From Pseudomonadota bacterium (GTDB taxonomy: Bacteria > Pseudomonadota > Alphaproteobacteria > Rhizobiales > Aestuariivirgaceae): a DNA stretch of 33,934 nt. Both the position numbers and the translations under genes were made by a program. The notes under the pieces were generated by a model, which worked only from the letters and a program-made list of their open reading frames with translations, searched no databases and was not told the origin of the DNA. Of this stretch, positions 21,262 to 22,099 are shown in pieces (the first letter of the stretch is position 1; the number at the start of each line of letters is the position of its first letter). Location of the stretch: positions 1 to 33,934 of the forward strand of contig JAEKFU010000002.1 in the NCBI GenBank assembly GCA_016522385.1, in the 5' to 3' direction.

Positions 21262-21311
21262 CTAGAGCGTGTCTTTCTCATATGGAACCGTTTGAGAAAG
21301 ACACGCTCTAG
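21262..21311. repeat. Perfect CTAG-bounded palindrome (19-bp stems, 12-nt loop), possible bidirectional terminator
   Basis: CTAGAGCGTGTCTTTCTCA-TATGGAACCGTT-TGAGAAAGACACGCTCTAG begins 1 bp after the ChaC stop codon. Confidence 0.9.
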
Positions 21312-21326
21312 GCGTATGCCCTAAGA

Positions 21327-21776
21327 TCAGGTCGTCAGTGCCGGCGCGGCGCAATGCAAATCGTTGTCGGTCAGCAAACTGAGCTGCAATTCGGTAACGC
21401 TGTGAATTTCAACCGATTGACGCGACCTGGCATCGGCAACCAAGCCGGCGCGCAAGTCATCGCAAATACGACCAGCTTCCAAATGGTTTTCCGCCAGCAA
21501 ATGAACATGGACTTCATCCACCACGGATCGTGCGGAAAACCTGCCTTTGAGATGGCACAAGGGTTGCGAAAGGTCGACGGCCACAGGAACGAACTGGCAA
21601 TCTGAAATTCGGCGCACCGAAAGATAGACCGCATCGGGCAATACCGGACAGTGCCGTGCCGGGTAGACGCTGTGGATGTAGCGGCGGCCTGACGCGCCAT
21701 ACCAGTACCAGAACCGGTCAGTCAATTCAGGGTCACTGTTGATGAATGCGGGGCGGGGCTGAAAAGAAGTTTGCAT
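21327..21776 (-). CDS. Uncharacterised protein (149 aa), candidate SOS-regulated gene
   Basis: ATG at 21776: MQTSFQPRPAFINSDPELTDRFWYWYGASGRRYIHSVYPARHCPVLPDAVYLSVRRISDCQFVPVAVDLSQ...; -35/-10 promoter and LexA-like box immediately upstream. The track ORF starts at TTG 21812, which would place the promoter inside the coding region. Confidence 0.75.
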   Translation of the reverse strand: MQTSFQPRPAFINSDPELTDRFWYWYGASGRRYIHSVYPARHCPVLPDAVYLSVRRISDCQFVPVAVDLSQPLCHLKGRFSARSVVDEVHVHLLAENHLEAGRICDDLRAGLVADARSRQSVEIHSVTELQLSLLTDNDLHCAAPALTT

Positions 21777-21778
21777 TG

Positions 21779-21793
21779 GAACAAAAGTAGAAC
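21779..21793 (-). promoter_or_regulatory. Putative LexA (SOS) box GTTC-TACTTTT-GTTC
   Basis: Perfect match to the alphaproteobacterial GTTC-N7-GTTC direct repeat; overlaps the -10 and ends 2 bp upstream of the ATG at 21776. Confidence 0.75.
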
Positions 21794-21812
21794 ATTCTTG
21801 TGCGCCTGTCAA
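21784..21812 (-). promoter_or_regulatory. Putative sigma70-type promoter: -35 TTGACA, 17-bp spacer, -10 TACTTT
   Basis: Minus strand reads TTGACA GGCGCACAAGAATGTTC TACTTT TGTTCCA ATG. Confidence 0.6.
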
Positions 21813-21828: not shown

Positions 21829-22099
21829 CTAGGGTCAGGACTCATTGATTTCATCCATTCTGCGCGAGCAGATTTGCCTGCTGAGCAGGCAGGCAGGCGC
21901 AGGAAACCCGGCCGGTTTTCAAGCCTGTCTTACGCACGCAGGAGGCAAATCTGCCGCGCCCACAGGGTTTGGCCCTGAGGGCCGCCTGCAGGCAAACAAT
22001 GCTCGATAAGGCAGAAAGCCTTATCTTGCGCTTGTTTCCCAGCATTCGAGCCCTCACGGCCAAACAGAATTGCATGAAATTAATGAGTCCTGACCCTAG
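21829..22099. mobile_element. 271-bp MITE-like element with terminal inverted repeats, no transposase
   Basis: Left end CTAGGGTCAGGACTCATTGATTTCAT (21829-21854) matches the reverse complement of the right end (22074-22099) at 25/26 positions. Internal hairpins include CGCGaGCAGATTTGCCT with AGGCAAATCTGCCGCG, and GATAAGGC-AGAAA-GCCTTATC. Confidence 0.8.

Follow-up and report, generated by a model that had tools for sequence, protein, structure and literature searches.

A probably GIY-YIG-derived protein family of Hyphomicrobiales with a conserved LexA-type box and a probably leaderless start

The window, i.e. the whole stretch of 33,934 nucleotides that was analysed, comes from an alphaproteobacterium of the Aestuariivirgaceae and contains, between positions 21327 and 21812, a short gene on the minus strand whose promoter overlaps a GTTC-N7-GTTC repeat. 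This repeat is the reported LexA motif of Alphaproteobacteria (PMC8565304). The locus raises the question whether the gene is controlled by LexA, where its transcript and its coding sequence begin, and what its product might do. The features of the control region and the coding sequence are:

21807..21812, minus strand: -35 hexamer TTGACA, as read from the sequence
21784..21789, minus strand: -10 hexamer TACTTT, separated from the -35 by a 17-nt spacer and lying inside the LexA box
21779..21793, minus strand: LexA box GTTC-TACTTTT-GTTC, 2 bp (CA) from the ATG at 21776-21774
21327..21776 (stop included), minus strand: coding sequence of 149 aa with a product of probable GIY-YIG descent, start ATG 21776 (probably leaderless), stop TGA 21327

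The layout claimed in the first-pass annotation, TTGACA-N17-TACTTT with the box over the -10 and the ATG 2 bp further on, was found to be exact to the base. No Shine-Dalgarno sequence is visible before ATG 21776. The open reading frame is 149 aa in length from this ATG and 161 aa when counted from TTG 21812, which had been considered as the alternative start. The TTG codon was rejected as a start, since it coincides with the opening TTG of the -35 hexamer and the homologous loci place their ATG after the box.

The frequency of the motif does not by itself distinguish an operator from a chance match. In the window, three GTTC-N7-GTTC matches compare with 0.99 expected, a number reached by 10 of 100 shuffled sequences, and the genome contains 165 matches versus 213 for the reversed control pattern. 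The bare count was rejected as evidence, as neither window nor genome is enriched. A bare pattern no commoner than its reverse is what would be seen if the GTTC repeats were coincidental and the gene constitutive. That explanation is nevertheless extremely improbable when homologous loci are compared: the exact box, in either orientation and in the 300 bp preceding the matched segment, is present at 76 of 113 loci and the reversed pattern at none (0/113, same scope), and the box keeps a fixed distance from the start codon. It is this conservation, and not the count, that places the box above chance. The comparison of homologues proposed in the first-pass annotation hence came out in favour of its reading, and the box was also found at all 25 further loci examined from the same taxonomic family.

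Sampling of 298 genomes of the order revealed homologues of the protein in 124 (about 40%), and 51 of 60 genomes of the taxonomic family have one. Elsewhere in the class they are less frequent, with 12 matches in 387 genomes (own genome counted; limited search depth). A search of the INPHARED phage collection with one relative as query yielded no member at E 0.01.

The promoter elements are conserved together with the box. Among the homologous loci, 73 boxes are in forward orientation, and 49 of these end 1-2 bp before an in-frame ATG. The central seven bases in the 49 loci resemble a -10 element (T-A/C-N-N-T-T-T; mostly TAT/TAG/TAC-NTTT in homologues), and most of them feature a correctly spaced TTGAC-like -35. 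For all 73 forward boxes, a -35 of the TTGA/TTGCC type was counted in 54 cases, with about 14 expected. None of the 49 loci has a Shine-Dalgarno-like stretch. At the same-family loci, the ATG follows the box by 1-2 bp in 17 of 25 cases, whereas the nearest start codon is located 16-25 nt downstream of the box in about eight. The leaderless start claimed earlier is supported by the -10 within the box, the adjacent ATG and the missing Shine-Dalgarno sequence, but the more distant starts set a limit to its generality. From their arrangement, operator, promoter and start commonly form a single unit, although a strictly leaderless start is not universal. For the studied gene, the transcript is likely to be leaderless or nearly so. 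Leaderless transcripts are established in a relative, Sinorhizobium meliloti, with 171 leaderless AUG-starting mRNAs (PMC3616915).

The first-pass annotation had named homologues lacking the box as an observation that would speak against it. This observation was made in part: 37 of the 113 loci have no exact box, and they belong chiefly to a few lineages. Given these 37 loci, the gene family is, as far as the motif indicates, not SOS-controlled everywhere. The box-lacking lineages (L032, L037, L038, L052, L067 and similar ones) are mostly found beside nrdJ, and they more often retain a Glu near the catalytic position discussed below. SOS control may have been lost or gained in them.

Some loci carry more than one box. 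Two exact boxes in tandem were observed upstream of L016 and L019; the first, GTTCTTGACATGTTC, holds the -35 TTGACA and the second holds the -10, so that both promoter elements lie under LexA boxes. L110, L116 and L120 (and also L096, L098, L100, L101 and L108) combine the promoter box with an extra GAAC-N7-GAAC in the codons that directly follow the ATG.

Other SOS genes of the genome provide additional means to assess the motif. The genome has one lexA-type gene, which is preceded by GAAC-N7-GAAC. The narrower pattern GTTCT-N4-T-N-GTTC has nine matches in the genome, one of which is the studied gene, while others precede recA, radA, ssb and an SPL-like radical SAM gene. A lexA gene is hence present, and the core SOS genes recA, lexA, ssb and radA carry the same box as the studied gene, where the exact motif covers the -10. 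Together with the order-wide conservation of the box, this supports the LexA repression proposed in the first-pass annotation, and we regard control of the gene by LexA as very probable. As a calibration, recA promoters of 12 other genomes were inspected, and an exact box was found in only one case; box use in those genomes is therefore deduced from the studied gene family alone. Candidate further LexA targets of the own genome lie at L002 1501-1515 and L048 1501-1515. One candidate box precedes a glutathione-S-transferase-like open reading frame (GTTCTATATGTGTTC), and a second is located between an SPL-like radical SAM gene and a glycosyltransferase gene.

The studied gene is not known to be among the targets of the alphaproteobacterial LexA regulon. 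It is likewise not described in the open-access papers searched on LexA with GIY-YIG, on alphaproteobacterial SOS genes and on leaderless starts. A LexA-regulated exonuclease with a GIY-YIG domain is known from Bacteroidetes (PMC8565304), which is a different protein from the one studied here.

The first-pass annotation stated that the protein matches no nameable family. This holds for the libraries: Pfam, NCBIfam and PADLOC matched no family with the window protein, and with 87 relatives they gave nothing convincing, the scattered weak single-member matches being due to chance. PHROGs yielded no convincing match for the window protein, the NCBIfam model of Cho gave no match above its cut-off, and a PDB profile search with the main family returned none. 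Profile comparison, in contrast, points to descent from UvrC/Cho-type GIY-YIG domains. A first, weak lead was a plasmid-borne homologue from Bradyrhizobium annotated as a GIY-YIG nuclease. A search with this protein returned the same family along with a few paralogues; the window protein was among the matches, at E 2.5e-10.

The connection runs through a clade of bridge proteins, one of which comes from another order. They have the N-terminal W-x-G-x-S-G-x2-Y hairpin in common with the main family, and Tyr, Gly, Arg, His, Glu and Asn are invariant in them at GIY-YIG spacing. Comparison of the main family with the bridge clade (hhalign profiles) resulted in a probability of 99.5% at E 7e-23; when the window protein and its two closest relatives alone represented the main family, the values were 97.9% and E 3e-13. 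The bridge clade matched ordinary GIY-YIG proteins with 73% probability (P 3e-5), the alignment lying on the motif, whereas the main family, when compared directly with these ordinary proteins by profile, gave an insignificant result (1% probability), for which reason the link needs the bridge clade. In the PDB, the bridge profile matched best to six UvrC GIY-YIG sequences (best E 5e-4); SLX1 was a weaker match. One bridge protein aligned with Cho at E 1.8e-4, scoring 20.7 bits against a curated cut-off of 367. AlphaFold models from three-sequence alignments were of low confidence (pLDDT 54-55), and a Foldseek comparison of these models with the PDB gave no GIY-YIG structure and no useful match. 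By the indirect but consistent route through the bridge clade, the core very likely descends from a UvrC/Cho-type GIY-YIG domain. The relevant parts of the protein are:

21663..21716, minus strand: N-terminal hairpin, residues 21-38, RFWYWYGASGRRYIHSVY; W25, G27, S29, G30 and Y33 conserved at 99% or more in box-bearing members
21441..21638, minus strand: putative GIY-YIG-derived core, residues 47-112; canonical Arg, YIG Tyr and Glu lost, E88-x-H90-x-H92-L ... D107-L108 near-invariant
21372..21386, minus strand: motif QLSLL in the C-terminal tail, residues 131-135, resembling a beta-clamp-binding sequence and imperfect at position 5

An active GIY-YIG site features catalytic Tyr, Tyr, Arg, Glu and Asn. 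At the columns of the GIY-Tyr, YIG-Tyr, YIG-Gly, Arg and Glu, the window protein has Tyr, Ala, Asp, Leu and Cys. It also has Asp at Gly68, a position otherwise 96% conserved. In 49 box-bearing members, the catalytic Arg occurs in three, the Glu in 11 and the YIG Tyr in none of those listed, whereby a few members are perhaps misaligned at the Glu-bearing helix. Other positions are strongly conserved instead: W25, G27, S29, G30, Y33, E88, H90, H92, L93 and D107 reach 99-100% in 74 box-bearing members.

Such conservation of E88, H90, H92 and D107 exceeds the usual demands of folding, and those relatives whose motifs are intact resemble GIY-YIG nucleases. Both points fit an active nuclease or other hydrolase, whose site was rewired from these four residues on the GIY-YIG scaffold and which, induced by SOS, would cut damaged or branched DNA like Cho. 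We consider this rather unlikely, as the GIY-YIG catalytic residues are gone in nearly all members and no known E-x-H-x-H nuclease family was matched in Pfam, NCBIfam, PADLOC or PHROGs. The near-invariant E-x-H-x-H...D may serve in binding or may form a rewired active site; we favour loss of canonical cutting, with the rewired site as the main rival.

Comparison with characterised relatives illustrates the divergence. The N-terminal GIY-YIG domain of UvrC and Cho from Escherichia coli share remote core homology with the family via the bridge clade. In contrast to both, the family no longer has the catalytic Arg, the YIG Tyr and, mostly, the Glu; it has the extra N-terminal W-x-G-x-S-G-x2-Y hairpin and lacks the C-terminal parts of UvrC, while some members carry a clamp-like tail; the window protein has no detectable direct match to either. 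E. coli Cho is SOS-induced and controlled by LexA, as the box predicts for the studied gene. The 'GIY-YIG nuclease family protein' of Bradyrhizobium barranii plasmid pCC829_3 (WP_231146028.1, L051) shows homology along the entire domain, N-terminal hairpin included. It differs in two respects: the residues expected of an active GIY-YIG site (YVG, Arg, His, Glu and Asn) are retained, and there is no LexA box within 300 bp.

In some members of the family, the C-terminal tail resembles that of beta-clamp clients. The clamp consensus is QL[S/D]LF, and QLSLPL is a tight binder (PMC12309361). Tails of at least 10 residues were collected, of which 71 were non-identical. A QxxL[FWL] or hexamer-type motif was present in 19 of the 71, compared to a mean of 0.8 and a maximum of five in shuffled tails (2000 trials); this contrast overstates the evidence, since the tails stem from related, non-independent lineages and the motif was picked after some of them had been viewed. 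The motifs include QPSLF, QLSLW, QIDLF, QVDLF, QPSLPLF, QVSLPLF and QIELAF, among others. Unlike typical clients, only a subset of members has the motif, clamp contact is a prediction from sequence, and the window protein has Leu instead of Phe, QLSLL being weaker than QLSLF.

Taken together, we favour, as somewhat more probable than the alternatives combined, that the gene is a LexA-repressed SOS gene with a leaderless mRNA, encoding a non-nucleolytic GIY-YIG-derived accessory protein that is recruited to the clamp in this lineage. With operator and promoter fused, i.e. with the -10 within GTTC-N7-GTTC, LexA would repress the gene until RecA, activated by damage, leads to self-cleavage of LexA and derepression. 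RNA polymerase would then start at ATG 21776 or at most 1-2 nt from it, giving a leaderless mRNA. The product, a small protein with its canonical catalytic residues lost, would most likely act as an accessory of repair or replication and would bind damaged or branched DNA, or a partner. Its QL[SD]LF-like C-terminal peptide (QLSLL) would bring it to the beta sliding clamp, where it could influence how readily nucleases or polymerases gain access at stalled forks. More tentatively, the family may be an undescribed SOS effector family found throughout the order Hyphomicrobiales, in which a UvrC/Cho-type GIY-YIG nuclease domain, now non-cutting or with a rewired E-x-H-x-H site, is tethered to the clamp and remodels repair or the bypass of lesions at the fork, its expression being driven by a conserved leaderless LexA promoter.

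Alphaproteobacterial SOS regulons still contain genes of unknown function. The frozen operator-promoter-start layout in a family present in 124 of the 298 genomes suggests that it is important for expression to be rapid and tightly repressed. If the protein is indeed a clamp-tethered pseudo-nuclease, the damage response would employ the UvrC/Cho domain in a non-catalytic manner, and the protein would be a candidate controller of repair versus lesion bypass. The conserved leaderless layout offers a clean system to study why damage genes should be leaderless.

The neighbourhood bears on two further explanations. Small alphaproteobacterial SOS-controlled proteins of unknown family include division inhibitors, and ftsX or ftsE is found near the gene in some loci. 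The product could accordingly be an SOS-induced inhibitor of cell cycle or division, or a protein-protein regulator like Caulobacter SidA or DidA, with no role at DNA. SidA and DidA are short membrane peptides, however, while the studied protein appears to be a soluble, folded domain of nuclease descent, and the ftsEX linkage is mere conserved synteny of the region, which makes this explanation quite improbable.

An accessory role for NrdJ, a class II ribonucleotide reductase, by which more dNTPs would be supplied after damage, is suggested by the position of nrdJ directly upstream on the same strand in 38 of 113 loci. In 42 loci, however, plsC is located upstream without nrdJ, and 28 of these have the box, whereas only 20 of the 38 nrdJ-adjacent copies do (28 of 33 at other loci). 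The gene also has a promoter of its own, and in the window a MITE stands between it and nrdJ. The adjacency to a ribonucleotide reductase gene, noted in the first-pass annotation, is correct for the window, but the two are probably not functional partners; synteny demotes this role, and we assign it little probability. From these counts, the gene is taken to be a separate transcription unit in a conserved neighbourhood and not necessarily an accessory of the reductase. A convergent ChaC-type gene lies downstream in 60 of the 113 loci.

Both flanks of the gene in the window carry repeat sequences. The MITE-like element at 21829-22099, between nrdJ and the promoter, has 29-nt terminal inverted repeats (CTAGGGTCAGGACTCATT...) and ends 17 bp before the -35; partial copies occur elsewhere in the genome. 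Just beyond the stop codon, at 21262-21311, lies a near-perfect 50-bp palindrome, CTAGAGCGTGTCTTTCTCA...TGAGAAAGACACGCTCTAG. Its half-site has 63 copies in the genome, compared to none for the reversed control, and in two contigs half-sites are 249 bp apart, like the ends of a larger element.
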